A DNA stretch of 64,000 nt from contig NZ_JAAOIR010000001.1 of NCBI RefSeq assembly GCF_011440375.1, forward strand, positions 248,001 to 312,000, read 5' to 3'. The position numbers and the translations under genes are program-made. This document shows positions 3,443 through 36,070 of this stretch, piece after piece. The DNA comes from Halorubellus sp. JP-L1 (GTDB taxonomy: Archaea; Halobacteriota; Halobacteria; Halobacteriales; Natrialbaceae). Numbering within the stretch: the stretch's first letter is position 1; each line of letters begins with the position of its first letter. A model generated the notes under the pieces. That model did no database searches, was not told where the DNA came from, and saw nothing but the letters and a program-made list of their open reading frames with translations.

Positions 3443-4143
3443 GCCTCCTCGAACTCGCCGGCGTCGACGCCGGCTACGGCGACCTCCAGATCCTCGCGGA
3501 CGTCGACATGTCCGTCGAAGACGGCGAGTACGTGACGATCGTCGGCCCGAACGGCGCGGGGAAGTCCACCGCGATGAAGACCGTGTTCGGCCTCACGACG
3601 CTCATGGGCGGCACCGTCGACTTCGCCGGCAGTCCGATCCACGAGCTCGGGACCCAGGAGATCATCCGCGAAGGCATCGCGTACGTCCCGCAGACGGAGA
3701 ACCTGTTCCCGCGGATGACGGTCCGGGAGAACCTCGAGATGGGCGCGTACATCTTCGAGGAGTTCCCCGAGGACCGACTCGACGACGTGTTCGAGCGGTT
3801 CCCGATCCTCCGCGAGCGCGAGCGCCAGCGCGCCGGGACGATGTCCGGCGGTCAACAGCAGATGCTCGCGATGGGTGCCGCACTCATGCTCGATCCCGAC
3901 CTCCTGATGCTCGACGAGCCGTCCGCGGGCCTCGCGCCCGACCTCGTCGACGAGATGTTCGACAAGATCGACGAGATCAACGACGGCGGCACCGCCGTCC
4001 TCATGGTCGAGCAGAACGCGAAGGAGGCCTTGCGGCGCTGCGACCGCGGGTACGTCCTCGTCAACGGCGAGAACAGCTTCGAGGGTCCCGGTACCGACCT
4101 CCTCCAGAACGAGGAGGTCCGCCAGCGGTTCCTCGGCGGCTGA
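3439..4143 (+). CDS. livF: ABC transporter ATP-binding protein, LivF type
   Basis: Second ATPase of the importer, 234 residues, the usual LivF length. It begins MSLLELAGVDAGYGDLQIL. Walker A is IVGPNGAGKSTAMK, the signature is MSGGQQQMLAMGAAL, Walker B is LLMLDEPSAGLAPDL and the switch region is LMVEQNAKEAL. Start ATG overlaps the livG stop (ATGA) and is preceded by GGGGGAGGAA. It is the last gene of the liv cluster; the next 200 bases contain a tandem repeat and then a new leaderless promoter. Confidence 0.92.
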   Translation: MSLLELAGVDAGYGDLQILADVDMSVEDGEYVTIVGPNGAGKSTAMKTVFGLTTLMGGTVDFAGSPIHELGTQEIIREGIAYVPQTENLFPRMTVRENLEMGAYIFEEFPEDRLDDVFERFPILRERERQRAGTMSGGQQQMLAMGAALMLDPDLLMLDEPSAGLAPDLVDEMFDKIDEINDGGTAVLMVEQNAKEALRRCDRGYVLVNGENSFEGPGTDLLQNEEVRQRFLGG

Positions 4144-4210
4144 CTCGACCCCGGCCAGGAGTCCGGGCGGCTCCGATCTGCGGTCTCGTCGACCTCGTAC
4201 TCACCTCGTC

Positions 4211-4300
4211 GACGACACGCTCGCTACCGACGACGCGCTCGCCACGGACGGCGCGCTCGCTACGGACGGCGCACTCGTCAGGGACGGCGCACTCGAACAC
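4211..4300. repeat. five tandem 18-bp units downstream of livF
   Basis: Five imperfect 18-bp units run head to tail, starting at 4211, 4229, 4247, 4265 and 4283, each beginning GACGRCRCRCTCG and differing at a few positions near the end. The array sits in the noncoding gap between livF and the DUF5518 gene. Both strands are open through it because the period is a multiple of three, but no start, promoter or recognisable protein accompanies it. Confidence 0.8.
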
Positions 4301-4341
4301 CCGGCTGAATGCGTCAACGCCCGCCTCGGGCGACACCATAG

Positions 4342-7989: not shown

Positions 7990-8754
7990 TCAGTCCCACT
8001 CCGGGTCCCGTCCCTCGAGGAACGCGTCGACGCCCTCCTCGTGCTCGTCCATCATGTACGCCTGCACCTGCATGTGGTTCTCGTAGTCCAGGGCCTTCCG
8101 CCAGTCGTTGTCGAGGTTCTCGTGGATCGCTTGCTTCGTCATCCCGACCGTCCGCGTCGGACGACGGCCGAGTTTACCGACGATCTCGTCGACGGCGTCG
8201 TCGAGGTCGTCCTCGGGAACGGCCTCGTTCACGAGGTCGATGTCGGCGGCCTCCTCGCCGTCGAAGAACTCGCCGGTCATCGTCAGGCGCTTCGCGGTCC
8301 GGAGCCCGAGGAGCTTTGGGAGCGTGAACGTCGCACCAGTGTCCGGGATGAGTCCGATCCGAACGAACGCGCACGAGAACGTCGCGTCCGGGACCGTGTA
8401 CGCGAAGTCCGAGGCGGCGACGATCGCGAGCCCGGCGCCGACGCAGTCGCCGTTGACCTTCGCGACGACCGGCACCCGCGACTGCATGATCGTCGCAGCC
8501 GTCCGGTTGAACGACTCGGCGACGCGCTCGTAGGCCTCGTGAGGGCCCTCCTCGCGCTCCTTCATCGCCTGGATGTCGCCGCCAGCGGAGAACGCTGGGT
8601 CGTCGCCAGTGATCACGACCGCGTCGTGTTCATCGGGCGTGGTTTCGTCGACCGCGTCGGCGAGCGACTCGGCGACCTCGATGTCCATCGCGTTCATCGC
8701 TCCTGGTCGGTCGAACGTTATAGTGCGAACGCCGTCGTCGTCCTCGATGCGCAT
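7990..8754 (-). CDS. enoyl-CoA hydratase/isomerase, PaaG-like active site
   Basis: 254 residues, crotonase fold. Oxyanion-hole motifs are AFSAGGDIQAMK (about residues 55-65) and CVGAGLAIVAASD (about 104-116). Where typical hydratases carry a Glu and a Gly-rich turn, this protein reads IGLIPDTGATFTLPKLLG with Asp near residue 138. That matches the catalytic Asp of PaaG, the 1,2-epoxyphenylacetyl-CoA isomerase (GLVPDSGGT in bacteria), more than a classical hydratase. Start ATG 8754 is chosen because CAATTAAGC on the minus strand (8778-8786) lies at leaderless distance; an upstream start would add 16 residues. With paaABCD nearby, a PaaG role is plausible but unproven. Confidence 0.82.
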   Translation of the reverse strand: MRIEDDDGVRTITFDRPGAMNAMDIEVAESLADAVDETTPDEHDAVVITGDDPAFSAGGDIQAMKEREEGPHEAYERVAESFNRTAATIMQSRVPVVAKVNGDCVGAGLAIVAASDFAYTVPDATFSCAFVRIGLIPDTGATFTLPKLLGLRTAKRLTMTGEFFDGEEAADIDLVNEAVPEDDLDDAVDEIVGKLGRRPTRTVGMTKQAIHENLDNDWRKALDYENHMQVQAYMMDEHEEGVDAFLEGRDPEWD

Positions 8755-8777
8755 ATCGAATTGAACTCTCCATCGGT

Positions 8778-8786
8778 GCTTAATTG
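8778..8786 (-). promoter_or_regulatory. TATA box for the enoyl-CoA hydratase gene
   Basis: CAATTAAGC on the minus strand is centred about 28 bases upstream of ATG 8754, consistent with a leaderless transcript. Confidence 0.5.
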
Positions 8787-8987
8787 TTCGGGGGTCGTCC
8801 ACGAATCGGCCGTCGAGTACACTGGCACGGAGGCCCGTCCGAGAGCACCGGCCGAGGCACGCCGAGCGGTTCGCAACGGCGCGAGCCCACTCGAGAATAC
8901 CCGTGGGATCGCTCGGTGCTCTAAGGGTGTGATTGAGGGAAGCGGATGGAAATGCTCAAAAGCATCCCGTACCGACCACAGTTCGAC

Positions 8988-9820: not shown

Positions 9821-10207
9821 ATGGACATCGAGTCGTTCTTCGAGGAGATGCCGTTCGCTGACTTGCTCGGCATCGAAGTGACCGAGGCCGCGGACGGGCA
9901 CGCGGAAGGATACCTGGAGATGCGCGAGGAGCTCTCCTGGAACGCGGACCGGCTTATGGCGCACGGCGGCGTGACGTTCACGCTCGCGGACACCGTCGGC
10001 GGCGCCGCGCTCGTCTCCGAGGTCGACCAGCCCGTGCCGACGATCGACATGCGGATCGACTACCTCGACGCCGGCACCGGCGACCTGCGCGCGGTCGCGG
10101 ACACCGTCCGCGTCGGCGGCGACGTCGGGACCGTCGACGTCGAGGTGTACGCCGTCGAGGACGACGCGCTCGTCGCCGACGCCCGCGGCGTCTACAAGAC
10201 GGGATAA
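9821..10207 (+). CDS. PaaI-like hot-dog acyl-CoA thioesterase
   Basis: 128 residues, one hot-dog domain of the PaaI/YbgC type. The helix start LMAHGGVTFTLADTVGGAAL holds the HGG motif and the catalytic Asp expected for PaaI thioesterases, and the final strand reads DALVADARGVYKTG. PaaI hydrolyses ring-hydroxylated phenylacetyl-CoA that stalls the Paa pathway; other members take varied acyl-CoAs. Presence of paaABCD 6 kb away supports but does not prove a PaaI role. Transcribed from its own leaderless promoter, convergent with the UspA gene. Confidence 0.82.
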   Translation: MDIESFFEEMPFADLLGIEVTEAADGHAEGYLEMREELSWNADRLMAHGGVTFTLADTVGGAALVSEVDQPVPTIDMRIDYLDAGTGDLRAVADTVRVGGDVGTVDVEVYAVEDDALVADARGVYKTG

Positions 10208-10231
10208 CGCTCGCGACGCCGAGGACGCCTC

Positions 10232-18246: not shown

Positions 18247-18417
18247 ATGAGTCGTCGACTCGACCCGTCCGTCCAGACCAGCGGCGAGGTGGAGGGCGCG
18301 GAATGCCCGTACTGTGGGTCGACTGAGACCGAGCGCGAACACCCGAAGGGGCCGTCGCTGTGCCGGTCCATGCACTACTGTAACAGTTGCGAGCAGCCGT
18401 TCGAGAAGTTCGAGTGA
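18247..18417 (+). CDS. PaaD zinc-ribbon domain as a separate 56-residue protein
   Basis: ATG one base after the paaD stop opens a 56-codon frame, MSRRLDPSVQTSG onward. It holds CPYCGS near residue 20 and CRSMHYCNSCEQPFEKFE at the end. The second part matches the C terminus of bacterial PaaD/PaaJ, where a CPxCGS motif is followed by a C-x5-C-x2-C-x2-PF segment. So the gene encodes the zinc ribbon that is fused to the DUF59 domain in bacteria. It is the last gene of the paa cluster, and its stop codon abuts the first hairpin repeat unit. Confidence 0.85.
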   Translation: MSRRLDPSVQTSGEVEGAECPYCGSTETEREHPKGPSLCRSMHYCNSCEQPFEKFE

Positions 18418-18562
18418 ACTGACTCGCTAGGATACGGCGGTCTCTTGGCCGCCGTTTCCTGCGGGAACTGACTCGCTAGGATACGGCGGTCTCTTGGCCG
18501 CCGTTTCCTGCGGGAACTGACTCGCTAGGATACGGCGGTCTCTTGGCCGCCGTTTCCTGCGG
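18416..18562. repeat. three identical tandem 49-bp hairpin units after paa cluster
   Basis: Units at 18416-18464, 18465-18513 and 18514-18562. Each begins GAACTGACTCGCTAGG and contains the core ATACGGCGG-N8-CCGCCGTTTCC, an inverted repeat with 7-bp arms (ACGGCGG/CCGCCGT), loop TCTCTTGG, followed by TTT. The first unit starts inside the stop codon of the zinc-ribbon gene. A T5 run follows at 18584. The same core, with a different loop, occurs three times at 35381-35517. Confidence 0.9.
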
Positions 18563-21654: not shown

Positions 21655-21831
21655 ATTCAGCCGACGACTGCTTGTTGGTAATCTTCTATCGGTAAGACAT
21701 TTTCCTGTATCTATCGATCGCTGAGGTCTTTCAAGAGATGGTGTGGAGGTTGTTCTCTGCAATCCTGGGGCGGGAGAGCGTCTATCTGTGAGGCGCATTA
21801 CTTTTGTCAGTTGGGTGCAGTGCGTGTTGGT

Positions 21832-22647
21832 ATGACGCGTGAGCCGTTGGCGACGTTGTCGGGGAGTCGGGCGGGGTTCCGGGAGATGGTGAACCTCGCG
21901 GCGTTGGGGACCGGGGATGGGGTGTACTACGACGAGATGCTGGTTCGGGTGACGGCGGATCGAGTGGAGACGCCGGCTGGGAAGCGCGAGACGTCGATGG
22001 CGGCGTACTGTACGGTCGAGCACGGGGCGTTCGACGGGGTGTCGTTGCATATCGACGAGCCGGCGGTCGCGATCTTCGACATCGAGGCGGCGCTGGGGTG
22101 GTTGGAGTGGTTGGAGGCCGACGACGTGGACGTGGTACTGTTGGGCGATCCGGGGGATGCGTTCGCTGGGACGCTGGAGTTCCGGACGGACGCGGAGACG
22201 GTGCAGGTGGCGTGCCGGCACGGCCCGGAGATACTGGGGGAGGTGACGACGGAGCTGCCGTCGCGGTTCGACGACGCGGACCGGTTCCGGCTGGAGGACG
22301 GCTCGCGGGCGCCGACGCTCGTGGAGACGACGGCGGGCGAACTGGAGCGGCTCGCGGACGCAGTCGAACTGGCGGAGACCGTGGACGGCTATCCGGTCGT
22401 CGTCGCGGACGGGCGGTTCGAGCTGGACGTCGGGAGCGAGCTCTCGCTCGCGCACGCGAGAACGACGCTGGACGGGAAGGTGACGGGGCCGGACGTCGCG
22501 AACCGCTACAGCGCGGACCTGGCGGCGCTCGCGCGCGCACTCGACGGCGACGTCGTCCTCCAGACGGGGCCGGACGAGCCGCTGGTCGTCGTGCAGACGC
22601 ACTCGCTGTTCACGCTCCGCTACGTCCTGTTGCCGGCGTCGTGGTGA
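21832..22647 (+). CDS. divergent PCNA-like sliding-clamp-fold protein
   Basis: 271 residues, two similar halves. Half one: GFREMVNLAALG helix, strand MLVRVTADRVETPAG, then VAIFDIEAALGWLEWL and TLEFRTDAETVQVACR. Half two: LVETTAGELERLADAVELAE, YSADLAALARALDGDVVLQT, PDEPLVVV and the ending TLRYVLLPAS. The order of helix, DG-like turn, linking helix and strand pair, and the last strand, parallel archaeal PCNA (second half ...SLDYLKDM..., LELGEEFPVKL, VTYMLAP). I infer a clamp paralogue, not the replicative PCNA, since residue identity is low. Start ATG 21832. It lies just right of the AT-rich island. A haloarchaea-specific protein of unknown role is the fallback call. Confidence 0.6.
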   Translation: MTREPLATLSGSRAGFREMVNLAALGTGDGVYYDEMLVRVTADRVETPAGKRETSMAAYCTVEHGAFDGVSLHIDEPAVAIFDIEAALGWLEWLEADDVDVVLLGDPGDAFAGTLEFRTDAETVQVACRHGPEILGEVTTELPSRFDDADRFRLEDGSRAPTLVETTAGELERLADAVELAETVDGYPVVVADGRFELDVGSELSLAHARTTLDGKVTGPDVANRYSADLAALARALDGDVVLQTGPDEPLVVVQTHSLFTLRYVLLPASW

Positions 22648-31713: not shown

Positions 31714-33036
31714 TCAGTTCCCGCGGAGTTCCTGGACGTGGTCGATGCGGGCCTGGACGAGTGCGTCGGTGCCGACGTCGTGGCGGACGTGCAGGCCCTC
31801 GTCGCCGGCCTCGTCGAGGACGGCTTCGGCGACGGCTTCGGCGTCGCTGATGGTGTCGGCGACGCCGACGACGGCGAACGCGCGCGAGGTCGTGGTGTAG
31901 ATGCCGTCGTCGCGTTCGTCGACGCTCGCGTAGAACAGGAGCGCGTCGCCGTCGTAGTCGCTCGCGACTTCGCGTGCGCGCTCCTCGTCGACCGCGACTT
32001 TCGTCCCGGCTTTGGGGTCGACTGGGTAGCCCTCTGGCGCGGCGTACTTGCAGACCGTCGCCTGCTCCGCGAACTCGAGTTCGGGGAGCGGGCGGCCGTC
32101 GCGCGCCGCCTGCATCAGTTCGACGTAGTCCGTCTCGAGGACGGGGAGCGTGTTCATCGCCTCCGGGTCGCCGAAGCGCGCGTTGAACTCGACGACCTTC
32201 ACGCCCTCGGCGGTGAGCATGAACTGGCCGTAGAGGACGCCGCGGTAGTCCTCGAGCGCGTCGACGGTCGCCTCCAGGATGCGCAGCGCCTCGACGCTGT
32301 CTGCCTCCGTCATGAACGGCAACTGGAAGGAGGCGTCCGAGTACGACCCCATCCCGCCCGTGTTCGGGCCCTCGTCGCCCTCGTACGCTCGCTTGTGGTC
32401 CTGGACCGCGGGCGAGACGAGGACGTCGTCGCCGGCGACGAACGCCTGCACGGTGAACTCCTCGCCGACGAGGCGCTCTTCGACCACCCAGTCGTCCCAG
32501 TCGCTGTCGCGCATGTACGCGACGGCCTCGTCCGTCGTGACCTGGTCGCCGGTGACGCGCACGCCCTTCCCGCCGGTGAGACCGACGGGCTTCACGGCCA
32601 CGTCGCCGTCGTACGACTCGACGTAGTTGCATGCATCGTCGACGTCGTCGAACGTCTCGTAGTCGATGCGGCCCGGGATCTCGTTGGCTTCCATGAACTC
32701 GCGCTGGAACGCCTTGTCCGTCTCGATGCGGGCGTCCTCCTCGCGCGGCGCGAACGCGTACACGTCCACGTCTTCGAGCGCGTCGACGACGCCCGCCTGG
32801 AGCGGCGACTCTGGACCGATCGCCGCGATGGTTGCGCCGACCTCGAGCGCGTAGTCGACGACGGCGTCGGGGTCGTTCTCGTCGAGCGTCTCGAACTCCT
32901 CGGCGAGGCGCGCGATGCCGGGGTTGCGGTTGCTCGCGCACGCGTACAGGGTCGCGGGCTCCTCGGCCTCGTCGACGGCACGGGCGATGGCGTGCTCGCG
33001 GCCGCCGCCACCGACGAGCAGGACGGTCTCACTCAT
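31714..33036 (-). CDS. purD: phosphoribosylamine-glycine ligase
   Basis: 440 residues, ATP-grasp ligase of purine synthesis joining glycine to phosphoribosylamine. N-terminal motif VLLVGGGGREHAIARAV, ATP-binding VAVKPVGLTGGKGVRVTGD, then the signature QDHKRAYEGDEGPNTGGMGS and FNARFGDPEAMNTLPVL. Start ATG 33036, preceded by a minus-strand TATA (ACTTTACA, about 33062-33069). Alone, divergent from the DUF255 gene. Confidence 0.95.
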   Translation of the reverse strand: MSETVLLVGGGGREHAIARAVDEAEEPATLYACASNRNPGIARLAEEFETLDENDPDAVVDYALEVGATIAAIGPESPLQAGVVDALEDVDVYAFAPREEDARIETDKAFQREFMEANEIPGRIDYETFDDVDDACNYVESYDGDVAVKPVGLTGGKGVRVTGDQVTTDEAVAYMRDSDWDDWVVEERLVGEEFTVQAFVAGDDVLVSPAVQDHKRAYEGDEGPNTGGMGSYSDASFQLPFMTEADSVEALRILEATVDALEDYRGVLYGQFMLTAEGVKVVEFNARFGDPEAMNTLPVLETDYVELMQAARDGRPLPELEFAEQATVCKYAAPEGYPVDPKAGTKVAVDEERAREVASDYDGDALLFYASVDERDDGIYTTTSRAFAVVGVADTISDAEAVAEAVLDEAGDEGLHVRHDVGTDALVQARIDHVQELRGN

Positions 33037-33202
33037 ACGCGAACCCGGTACGCAAGACGCTGTAAAGTTTGTCCTTCCATCGAGCGAAGGTATGCACGAA
33101 CGTGGTTGCTTGTTGGGCGGATTCGCTCGTGCGACGCGACGGACCGCCGCTGTCGCGTCCGACCCCGACGCCGTTTTCCGGCCGCCGAACGAACTTCCGG
33201 GC

Positions 33203-35380
33203 ATGACTGCGCCAACGGACCGGAATCGCCTCGACGAGGAGGCGTCGCCGTACCTGCGACAGCACGCCGACAACCCCGTGAACTGGCAGCCCTGGGACGA
33301 CGCCGCGCTCGAGGCCGCGCGCGAGCAGGACAAGCCCATCTTCCTCTCGGTCGGGTACTCGGCGTGTCACTGGTGTCACGTCATGGAGGACGAGTCGTTC
33401 CAGGACGACGACGTCGCCGCGCTCCTGAACGAACAGTTCGTCCCGATCAAGGTCGACCGCGAGGAGCGCCCGGACGTCGACTCGATCTACATGACGGTCT
33501 GCCAGACGGTGACGGGACGCGGCGGCTGGCCGCTCTCGGCGTGGCTGACGCCGGAGGGGAAGCCGTTCTACGTCGGGACGTACTTCCCGAAGGAACCGCG
33601 TCGGAACATGCCCGGGTTCGAGGGTCTCCTGGAGCGCATCGCGGAGTCCTGGCAGGACGACGAGGACCGCCGGGAGATGGAGTCTCGCGCGGACCAGTGG
33701 ACTGCTGCCGCACGGGACCGCCTCCAGGACGTGCCCTCCGCGGGCGCGGACGCGCCGGGCGACGACCTGCTCGTGGACGCGGCCGGTGCCATCCAGCGCA
33801 GCGCCGACCGCGAGCACGGCGGGTTCGGGAACCAGGGACCGAAGTTCCCCCAGGAAGCGCGATTGCACGTCCTCCTGCGCGCGCACCACGACACCGGCGG
33901 GGAGTCGTACGCGGACGTCGCCCGGGAGACGCTGGACGCGATGGCCGACGGCGGCCTCTACGACCACGTCGGCGGCGGCTTCCACCGGTACTGCACGGAC
34001 CGCGACTGGACGGTCCCGCACTTCGAGAAGATGCTGTACGACAACGCCGAACTCGCACGACTCTACCTCGCGGGCCACCAGGTCTTCGACGACGATGACC
34101 GATACGCGACGGTCGTGGAGGAGACGTTCGCGTTCCTCGAGCGCGAGCTACGGCACCCCGACGGCGGCTTGTACGCGACGCTCGACGCGCAGAGCGAGAC
34201 GCCCGACGGCGACCACGAGGAGGGCGCGTTCTACGTGTGGACGCCCGAGCGCGTCGCGGACGCGGTCGCGGCGAGCGACGACTGCGACCCCGTGGACGCG
34301 GACCTGTTCTGCGAGCGCTACGGCGTCACCGAGTCCGGGAACTTCGAGAACGACTGGACGGTCCTCACGATCTCGAAGCCCGTCGCGGAACTCGCCGAGC
34401 CCCACGACCTCGACGCCGACGCGGTCCGTGCCCGCCTCGAGCGCGCTCGCGACGCCGTCTTCGACGCACGGAGCGAGCGACCGCGGCCGCGTCGCGACGC
34501 GAAGATCCTCGCCGGCTGGAACGGCCTCGCAATCAGCGCACTCGCTGAAGGCGCGATCGTGCTCGAGGACGACGCGTACGCCGACCTCGCGGGCGACGCG
34601 CTCGCCTTCGTGCGCGAACACCTCTGGGACGAGGACGCCCAGCGGCTCTCGCGGCGCGCCGTCCCCGTCGACGGTGACGGTTCACTGGACGAGCATCGCG
34701 ACGGATCGCTCGACGTCCAGGGCGAGGGCTACCTGGAGGACTACGCGTTCCTCGCTCGCGGCGCGTTCGACCACTACCAGGCGACCGGCGACGTCGAGTC
34801 GCTCTCGTTCGCGCGCGACCTCGCGGACGTCGTCCACGAGGAGTTCTACGACGCCGACGCCGGGAGCGTGTTCTTCACGCCCGACTCGGGCGAGGACCTC
34901 GTCGTCCGTCCGCAGGAGGTCCGCGACCAGTCCACGCCCTCCAGCCTCGGCGTGGCGTGCGACGTCCTCCTCTCGCTCTCGCACTTCGCGACCGACGACC
35001 GCTACGAGGCCGTCGTCGAGACCGTCCTCGAACGTCACGGGTCGCGGATCGAGGCCAGTCCCGTCGAGCATCCGTCGCTCGCGCTCGTCGGCGACCGGTA
35101 CCGGAGCGGCGACGCCGAACTGACGCTCGCGTGCGACGACCGGCCCGCGGAGTTCCGCGAGACGCTCGCCGCGACGTACCTCCCGCGACGCGTCGTCGCC
35201 CAGCGCCCGGCGACCGCCGACGGCCTCGCGGCGTGGCTCGACGCCCTCGAACTCGACGCGGCCCCGCCCATCTGGGCGGATCGCGACGCCCGCGACGGCC
35301 CGACCGCGTACGCCTGCCGGTCGTTCGCGTGCTCGCCGCCCGCAGCCTCGCTCGAAGACGCGATTGCGTTCTTCGATTGA
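33203..35380 (+). CDS. DUF255 thioredoxin-domain protein (YyaL/SSP411 family)
   Basis: 725 residues. Residues 1-165 form the DUF255 thioredoxin-like domain: RNRLDEEASPYLRQHADNPV, NWQPW, and the CxxC-type motif GYSACHWCHVMEDESF near residue 55, then GRGGWPLSAWLTPEGKPFY. The rest is an (alpha/alpha)6 barrel like N-acyl-glucosamine epimerases with motifs GGLYDHVGGGFHRYCTDRDW, HFEKMLYDNAEL and GYLEDYAFLARG. Exact reaction is unknown; the family spans bacteria to mammals. Start ATG 33203. Its TGA stop leads straight into the second hairpin repeat array. Confidence 0.9.
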   Translation: MTAPTDRNRLDEEASPYLRQHADNPVNWQPWDDAALEAAREQDKPIFLSVGYSACHWCHVMEDESFQDDDVAALLNEQFVPIKVDREERPDVDSIYMTVCQTVTGRGGWPLSAWLTPEGKPFYVGTYFPKEPRRNMPGFEGLLERIAESWQDDEDRREMESRADQWTAAARDRLQDVPSAGADAPGDDLLVDAAGAIQRSADREHGGFGNQGPKFPQEARLHVLLRAHHDTGGESYADVARETLDAMADGGLYDHVGGGFHRYCTDRDWTVPHFEKMLYDNAELARLYLAGHQVFDDDDRYATVVEETFAFLERELRHPDGGLYATLDAQSETPDGDHEEGAFYVWTPERVADAVAASDDCDPVDADLFCERYGVTESGNFENDWTVLTISKPVAELAEPHDLDADAVRARLERARDAVFDARSERPRPRRDAKILAGWNGLAISALAEGAIVLEDDAYADLAGDALAFVREHLWDEDAQRLSRRAVPVDGDGSLDEHRDGSLDVQGEGYLEDYAFLARGAFDHYQATGDVESLSFARDLADVVHEEFYDADAGSVFFTPDSGEDLVVRPQEVRDQSTPSSLGVACDVLLSLSHFATDDRYEAVVETVLERHGSRIEASPVEHPSLALVGDRYRSGDAELTLACDDRPAEFRETLAATYLPRRVVAQRPATADGLAAWLDALELDAAPPIWADRDARDGPTAYACRSFACSPPAASLEDAIAFFD

Positions 35381-35535
35381 ACTGACTCCCCAAGCATACG
35401 GCGGCCGCTCGGCCGCCGTTTCCGGTACTGACTCCCCAAGCATACGGCGGCCGCTCGGCCGCCGTTTCCGGTCCTGTCACCCAAGCATACGGCGGCCGCT
35501 CGGCCGCCGTTTCCGGTCCTGTCCCCGAGCATACT
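35381..35535. repeat. three tandem 46-bp hairpin units plus remnant after DUF255 gene
   Basis: Units 35381-35426, 35427-35472 and 35473-35517 and a degenerate fourth from 35518 (CCTGTCCCCGAGCATACT). Core ATACGGCGG-N8-CCGCCGTTTCC with N8 = CCGCTCGG, giving a perfect 9-bp stem (ACGGCGGCC/GGCCGCCGT) and 4-base loop followed by TTT. The array starts directly after the stop TGA, reading TGAACTGACTC as at the paa repeat. No gene lies between 35381 and 35647. Confidence 0.9.
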
Positions 35536-35647
35536 GTGGCATCGCGGTCGCCACGTCGGCCGCGACGCGCCGGAATCCCGTGCGGGGGAGCCGTCTCGCC
35601 CGTGGACAGCCACAACGGTTTTGCGTCGCTGCGTCCCTGTTCGTGTC

Positions 35648-36070
35648 GTGAAGCGAACGTTCCTCGGAGCGCTGCTGGTCGGGGGCCTCCTCGGGTACGC
35701 GTTGCTGTCGGGCGCCGCGATCGACCTGAACCCGACGCCGACCGGCGACCCGCCGCGCACGCACGACGTCCAGGTGCGTGCGATCGGCGAGGGAACGACG
35801 CCGGTGTCGGTCACGCTCCTGCGGAACGGGAACACGGTCCTCGAGCGCGACCTGGCGGCGAACGAGTCGTTCGCGCGCGTCCTCAGGCTACAGGGGTCGG
35901 GCGAGTTCACGCTCGTCGTCTCTACGTCCGGGGATTCGACGACGGTGACGGTCGACCGACCCGAGCGCTATCGGCACTGCACGGGCGACATCGACGTCCG
36001 GTTCTCGGTGGAGACGGAGGACGTCTACGTGTCGACGCAGGAGAAGCCGGGTCGCTGCATCGAGCCCTGA
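35648..36070 (+). CDS. secreted or membrane-anchored protein, unknown
   Basis: 140 residues from GTG 35648. An N-terminal hydrophobic segment after MKRTFLGALLVGG is a signal anchor; there is no lipobox or twin Arg. The exported part is beta-rich (VQVRAIGEGTTPVSVTLLRN, GEFTLVVSTSGDSTTVTVDR) and has two Cys near the end (RHCTGD, GRCIEP) that could pair. T-rich CGGTTTTGCG (35616-35625) fits a leaderless promoter for this GTG. Family not recognised. Confidence 0.55.
   Translation: MKRTFLGALLVGGLLGYALLSGAAIDLNPTPTGDPPRTHDVQVRAIGEGTTPVSVTLLRNGNTVLERDLAANESFARVLRLQGSGEFTLVVSTSGDSTTVTVDRPERYRHCTGDIDVRFSVETEDVYVSTQEKPGRCIEP

Follow-up and report, generated by a model that had tools for sequence, protein, structure and literature searches.

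In the archaeal genus Halorubellus, the DNA on the 3′ side of arrays of a short hairpin repeat carries a strand-specific base bias that starts at the array and rises with the number of repeat units. The repeats form a Halorubellus-specific family with the habit of the bacterial REP elements. Palindromic repeats are widespread in prokaryotes, and their function and movement are largely unresolved; a dose-dependent, one-sided mutation footprint keeps a legible trace of something that happens to DNA at the repeat and, if true, means that a repeat can push the evolution of neighbouring genes in one set direction.

The window, the whole 64-kb stretch of Halorubellus sp. JP-L1 DNA that was analysed, contains two arrays in which the core ATACGGCGG-N8-CCGCCGTTTCC is exact in six of six units (none expected in shuffles). 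The description in the earlier note, six core-sharing units at two loci with both arrays starting at a stop codon, proved accurate to the nucleotide. The features are the following:

18247-18417, forward strand: PaaD zinc-ribbon gene (PF23451), upstream of array 1
18415-18417, forward strand: TGA stop that ends the PaaD zinc-ribbon gene and overlaps the leader of unit 1 of array 1
18416-18464, forward strand: array 1, unit 1 (49 nt), with leader GAACTGACTCGCTAGG, hairpin core at 18432-18457 and tail
18465-18513, forward strand: array 1, unit 2, same sequence as unit 1, with the core at 18481-18506
18514-18562, forward strand: array 1, unit 3, same sequence as unit 1, with the core at 18530-18555
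18432-18459, 18481-18508 and 18530-18557, forward strand: pattern matches of array 1, each an exact core match
32915-35380, forward strand: Thioredox_DsbH (DUF255) gene, PF03190, upstream of array 2
35378-35380, forward strand: TGA stop that ends the Thioredox_DsbH (DUF255) gene and overlaps the array 2 leader
35380-35425, forward strand: array 2, unit 1, core at 35396-35421
35426-35470, forward strand: array 2, unit 2, core at 35442-35467
35471-35517, forward strand: array 2, unit 3, core at 35487-35512
35396-35423, 35442-35469 and 35487-35514, forward strand: pattern matches of array 2, each an exact core match
about 35519-35545, forward strand: array 2, unit 4, decayed (CTGTCCCCGAGCATACTGTGG...), recognised by eye and below covariance-model detection
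35648-36070, forward strand: gene 3′ of array 2

The zinc-ribbon gene before array 1 closes a phenylacetate-oxygenase (paa) operon. Array 1 consists of three identical units of 49 nt each, and the units of array 2 are spaced by 46 and 45 nt; neither array matches a curated Rfam model, and H. salinus carries no array at the site of array 2. The genome-wide search for the core that had been proposed earlier gave 59 matches (forward and reverse) in the window's genome and 0 for the reversed control, and a covariance model detected at least 92 copies in Halorubellus sp. JP-L1 and at least 93 in H. salinus GX3, the two genomes on which the genus comparison is based. The 123 further genomes searched from the same family had no match, and when 84,980 species were scanned for the exact pattern, a set that may omit records near the window's genome, only H. 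salinus matched. A plasmid or viral origin of the repeats was rejected because neither a similarity search of plasmids nor the exact pattern in viral contigs gave any match. In the part of the literature that was covered, no description of the repeat family or of the strand footprint was found.

The anatomy of the repeat was drawn from 168 units in 87 arrays, taken from the sampled regions of both species; these pooled figures count shared sites twice and correspond to about 62 independent sites. Each unit is composed of an unpaired leader of about 17 nt (AACYGAC-n-AGC), a 9-bp hairpin and a G+T-rich tail, and the consensus over the 168 units reads AACYGAC-n-AGC, RT[A/C]CGSCGNCC, loop, GGNCGSCG[T/G]TTC. 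The commonest loop is GCCA, the foot of the hairpin is NAGC in 92-97% of units, and units end in TTTC, except in one subtype (ATCC..GGTTC) that ends in GTTC, with two Ts only; the commonest unit spacing is about 50 nt. The fixed core and the array-specific loops described earlier hold for the six units of the window but not genome-wide, where the loop varies and the stem varies by paired changes. These compensatory switches (G-C/C-G, G-C to A-T or T-A, and A-T/C-G) produced 9 doubly changed stem cells in a 23-sequence alignment, against 1.9 in shuffles, and of the 1233 stem pairs in all units, 1149 are Watson-Crick. Near the base of the stem, 158 of the 168 units keep a T-T mismatch, so that the hairpin is not simply being perfected. 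Units fold well both as RNA and as DNA. A CRISPR array was rejected, as the short tails of one array resemble each other and are not unique spacers.

Units are 88% identical within arrays and 69% between them, and 75% of neighbours have the same stem arm, in agreement with the earlier idea of one family amplified by local tandem duplication. Preservation is better in the 5′ than in the 3′ units of arrays (24 versus 7, p=0.0014). At 45 comparable sites, about 25 arrays are common to both species and about 20 are found in one species, and these species-specific sites support the coming and going implied by the suggestion of a mobile palindrome; shared arrays are not independent, and an array present in one species may reflect gain there or loss in the other. 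Shared sites have the same place and orientation, often with a different copy number and stem, and orthologous first units are more similar than shuffled pairs (0.76 versus 0.71), so that arrays are partly inherited. Empty sites have a native stop codon, sometimes TAG, and the occupied counterpart has TGA or TAA; some occupied genes stop a few codons sooner (L067, L077 and L099), and citrate synthase of other genera stops at the same residue and has no hairpin.

Two regions contain rearranged units. Behind a single unit at about 8490-8822 of region L067 (G000 C2, about 722490-722821) lies a tandem of units of about 49 nt each, in which the right half of the hairpin is kept and a new stem, GCCGGGCGA...TCGCCCGGC, is present; this tandem is a satellite derived from the repeat family. 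At about 10060-10216 of region L068, full units take turns with units cut exactly at the hairpin apex, in which ...ATACGGCGGCC runs directly into the next leader, TACTGCCC; the pattern suggests breaks or template switching at the loop.

Arrays run head-to-tail, and their 5′ edge is found either on a stop codon or immediately beyond a core promoter, genes being called by our own dicodon model and not taken from curated annotation. The 5′ gap has an interquartile range of -2 to 0 nt, in contrast to a median 3′ gap of 40 nt, the 3′ edge being unanchored. In 55 arrays the upstream gene reads toward the array, and the hairpin begins 3-19 nt past the stop codon in 50 of these, at exactly 14 or 15 nt in 28 of the 50; other stops, at 10 and 5-6 nt, are TGA triplets internal to the leader in other frames. 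The leader often supplies the stop codon of the upstream gene, and the stops at arrays are rarely TAG (1 of 50 versus 19%, p=3e-4) and frequently TAA (36% versus 14%). Most of the remaining arrays lie just outside the BRE/TATA of an outward gene (promoter elements were recognised by eye), usually with the hairpin about 30-75 nt from the predicted start codon; such promoter-anchored arrays, with the gene pointing away, account for 31 of 86. By context, 44 arrays are in co-directional, 26 in convergent (10-13 expected) and 14 in divergent intergenic regions (n=84, p=1.4e-4). Two orthologous array pairs about 1.1 kb apart (L126 9924-10122/L102 8627-8775 and L126 8640-8788/L102 9917-10063) were also observed; the second of them lies 80-99 nt past the stop codon, behind a T-rich tract, and is the sole orthologous pair with a long 3′ UTR.

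A stable RNA structure at the 3′ end of transcripts is possible at arrays, and it could be proposed that the arrays are 3′-end RNA elements that terminate transcription or, as hairpins, shield mRNA or delay ribosomes at termination. The enrichment at gene 3′ ends, particularly between convergent genes, and the onset of the hairpin about 14-15 nt past the stop codon are in line with this proposal, and E. coli REPs located 15 nt or less from the stop codon are reported to act on translation (PMC12306157). In Haloferax volcanii, terminators use a stretch of Ts with a final C, and termination at one hairpin tested there was partial, affecting 59% of transcripts (PMC7237163); the units resemble haloarchaeal terminators in their TTTC end and in their position after stop codons, but they have only two or three Ts (GTTTC/GGTTC), too few for a T-run, and they occur in divergent regions too. 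Besides, T-tracts are still present downstream of array genes and have not been replaced, so the strong terminator arrays put forward in the earlier note are not upheld. As more than a third of the arrays lie at promoters pointing away, and an RNA element does not predict a footprint in DNA, this explanation is considered unlikely.

That footprint was absent from the earlier note, whose interpretation was partly borne out and which also missed the restriction to the genus, the promoter anchoring and the compensatory stems; it is therefore an addition to what had been found. Intergenic DNA 3′ of arrays contains 63% G+T on the array strand, versus 48-51% in controls, in stop-type and promoter-type arrays alike. 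At fourfold-degenerate sites, the G+T excess in the first 150 nt is +0.17 for stop-type and +0.25 for promoter-type arrays and is gone by 800-1200 nt, independently of gene orientation; at array 2 of the window it is +0.16 over the 0-600 nt downstream. The 5′ side has a weak bias of opposite sign, part of which is also seen at ordinary gene ends. The excess increases with the number of units per array, from +0.13 (one) to +0.17 (two) and +0.34 (three or more), a dose relationship with a Spearman rho of 0.46 (p=1e-5). The same bias appeared when occupied and empty sites were paired between the species (n=16), with a G+T content of 0.697 versus 0.555 over the 0-500 nt downstream (p=2e-4). Read from empty to occupied at these 16 sites of the two-species comparison, downstream substitutions are unequal for C>T (63:10), C>G (253:113) and A>G (50:20), and upstream substitutions are balanced. 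Within the stems, G-T mispairs exceed A-C (44:7), and this excess may come from the same mutation bias and not from folding.

Several causes of the bias were discarded. Substitutions have no strong neighbour-base context, which led to the rejection of a sequence-specific deaminase. Replication direction was set aside too, since oppositely oriented arrays can lie near one another (for example L068, L133 and L106) and the skew was scored by array orientation. Strong skew is also found at some array-free places, so arrays are not its only cause.

When a single strand is exposed, damage to it is expected to produce C>T, C>G and A>G substitutions on that strand. There is about an even chance that the array strand is repeatedly exposed as single strand on the 3′ side, most likely by a nick followed by displacement. 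Resection of double-strand breaks was set aside by reasoning, since it would expose the other strand on that side. In the proposed mechanism, an enzyme would nick the array strand at the leader or the hairpin, and DNA synthesis or unwinding would displace the strand beyond the nick, as at a rolling-circle or transfer origin; the processing of single-stranded DNA would, in addition, favour the gain and loss of tandem units and matched (compensatory) stems. The observed tandem growth, 3′-ward decay and matched stems are compatible with such processing and do not prove it. Tentatively, at less than even odds, it is proposed that the arrays are dispersed mini-origins or nick sites that launch directional strand displacement, repeatedly leave up to about 1 kb of one strand exposed and act as directional local mutators of the genes nearby.

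R-loops would expose the same strand. Arrays would then lie where ribosome-free RNA begins, either after a stop codon or in antisense RNA leaving a promoter; the hairpin strand would fold, the RNA would stay on the template, and the displaced non-template strand would be damaged over about 1 kb. The GC skew associated with R-loops at eukaryotic promoters is unidirectional and G-rich and decays over about 1 kb, as the Halorubellus footprint does, although the latter is archaeal, starts at repeat arrays and is independent of the direction of the neighbouring gene. This explanation predicts the observed strand and direction of the bias, would account for the start of arrays at stop codons and promoters, and draws further support from the G-rich character acquired by the affected strand, which favours R-loops. 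On the other hand, intergenic DNA past ordinary stop codons has no footprint, and the footprint is stronger at promoter-type arrays, where no known gene is transcribed in the direction of the array, and this tips the balance toward the array itself as the starting point of the process. R-loops are accordingly regarded as possible but rather doubtful, less probable than the nick sites proposed above.

Nick sites of this kind would resemble transfer origins (oriT) and rolling-circle sites cut by HUH endonucleases, in which a hairpin lies beside a short conserved site and the nicked strand is expected to be displaced 3′-ward, as the footprint implies; they differ in that the Halorubellus units are present in about 90 copies on the chromosome, that neither plasmid nor mobilisation genes were found, and that the nick at the units is putative. 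As regards candidate enzymes, the Y1 transposase (PF01797) is absent from the window's genome (the E. coli control was positive), and neither the PF03432 (MOB) relaxase nor a reverse transcriptase was found in either Halorubellus genome. Searches for Y2 and Rep_1 identified no enzyme, and as their controls were silent as well, both were uninformative.

The units are close to REP elements in being short extragenic palindromes of high copy number (at least 92 per genome) and in preferring unidirectional and convergent intergenic regions (p=1.4e-4). REPs also share the compensatory stems, the unpaired 5′ tag, the location mostly at gene 3′ ends and the stop codon supplied by the tag (PMC3733652). 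However, the foot is AGC and not the GTAG or CGTC tag, and no REP-associated RAYT (a Y1 enzyme) exists in the window's genome; since both tag and RAYT are missing, the family is called REP-like in habit and not filed as REP, even though CGTC REPs likewise lack a RAYT (PMC3733652). In contrast to REPs, the units form head-to-tail arrays and also sit flush against promoters, and 35 E. coli REPs, sampled in 350 kb and treated in the same way, showed no such decay of strand bias. Reports of archaeal REPs are generic palindrome counts (PMC12306157), and a survey of TnpA-Y1 observed only the IS200 subclass in archaea, with no REP-class Y1 (PMC6006769).

The left ends of IS200/IS605 elements are single-strand specific and share with the units a short conserved motif, a linker, conserved foot bases and a hairpin with an unpaired T, but the Halorubellus units have no transposase, right end or open reading frame. 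It might be thought that the family is a classical REP or an IS200/IS605 derivative moved by a Y1 enzyme (RAYT or TnpA) that is now extinct or acts from elsewhere. The palindrome, unpaired 5′ tag, stem mismatch, 3′-end bias and tag-supplied stop codons are all as reported for GTAG REPs (PMC3733652). This origin is nevertheless very improbable, given the absence of a Y1 transposase from the window's genome, the distinct foot, the tandem rather than alternating units and the fact that IS605 end hairpins in H. salinus are unrelated to the units; no parent element with matching end hairpins, as expected for an IS200/IS605-derived MITE, was found. An IS200/IS605 element of H. salinus that encodes TnpA and TnpB (L093 7182-8990) adjoins a gene that flanks the citrate synthase array; as the hairpins at the ends of this element are unrelated, it was discarded as a source and considered a coincidental neighbour.

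Two further places with a one-sided skew were recorded. Positions 21655-21886 of the window, together with the gene to the right, have the highest one-sided G+T excess of 1208 gene boundaries (+0.42) and no detectable unit of the repeat family. At 4106-4329 of region L074, a different tandem repeat (CACTCGCTCGGTGTCGGTCGG...) located at a gene end has a one-sided G+T skew too.
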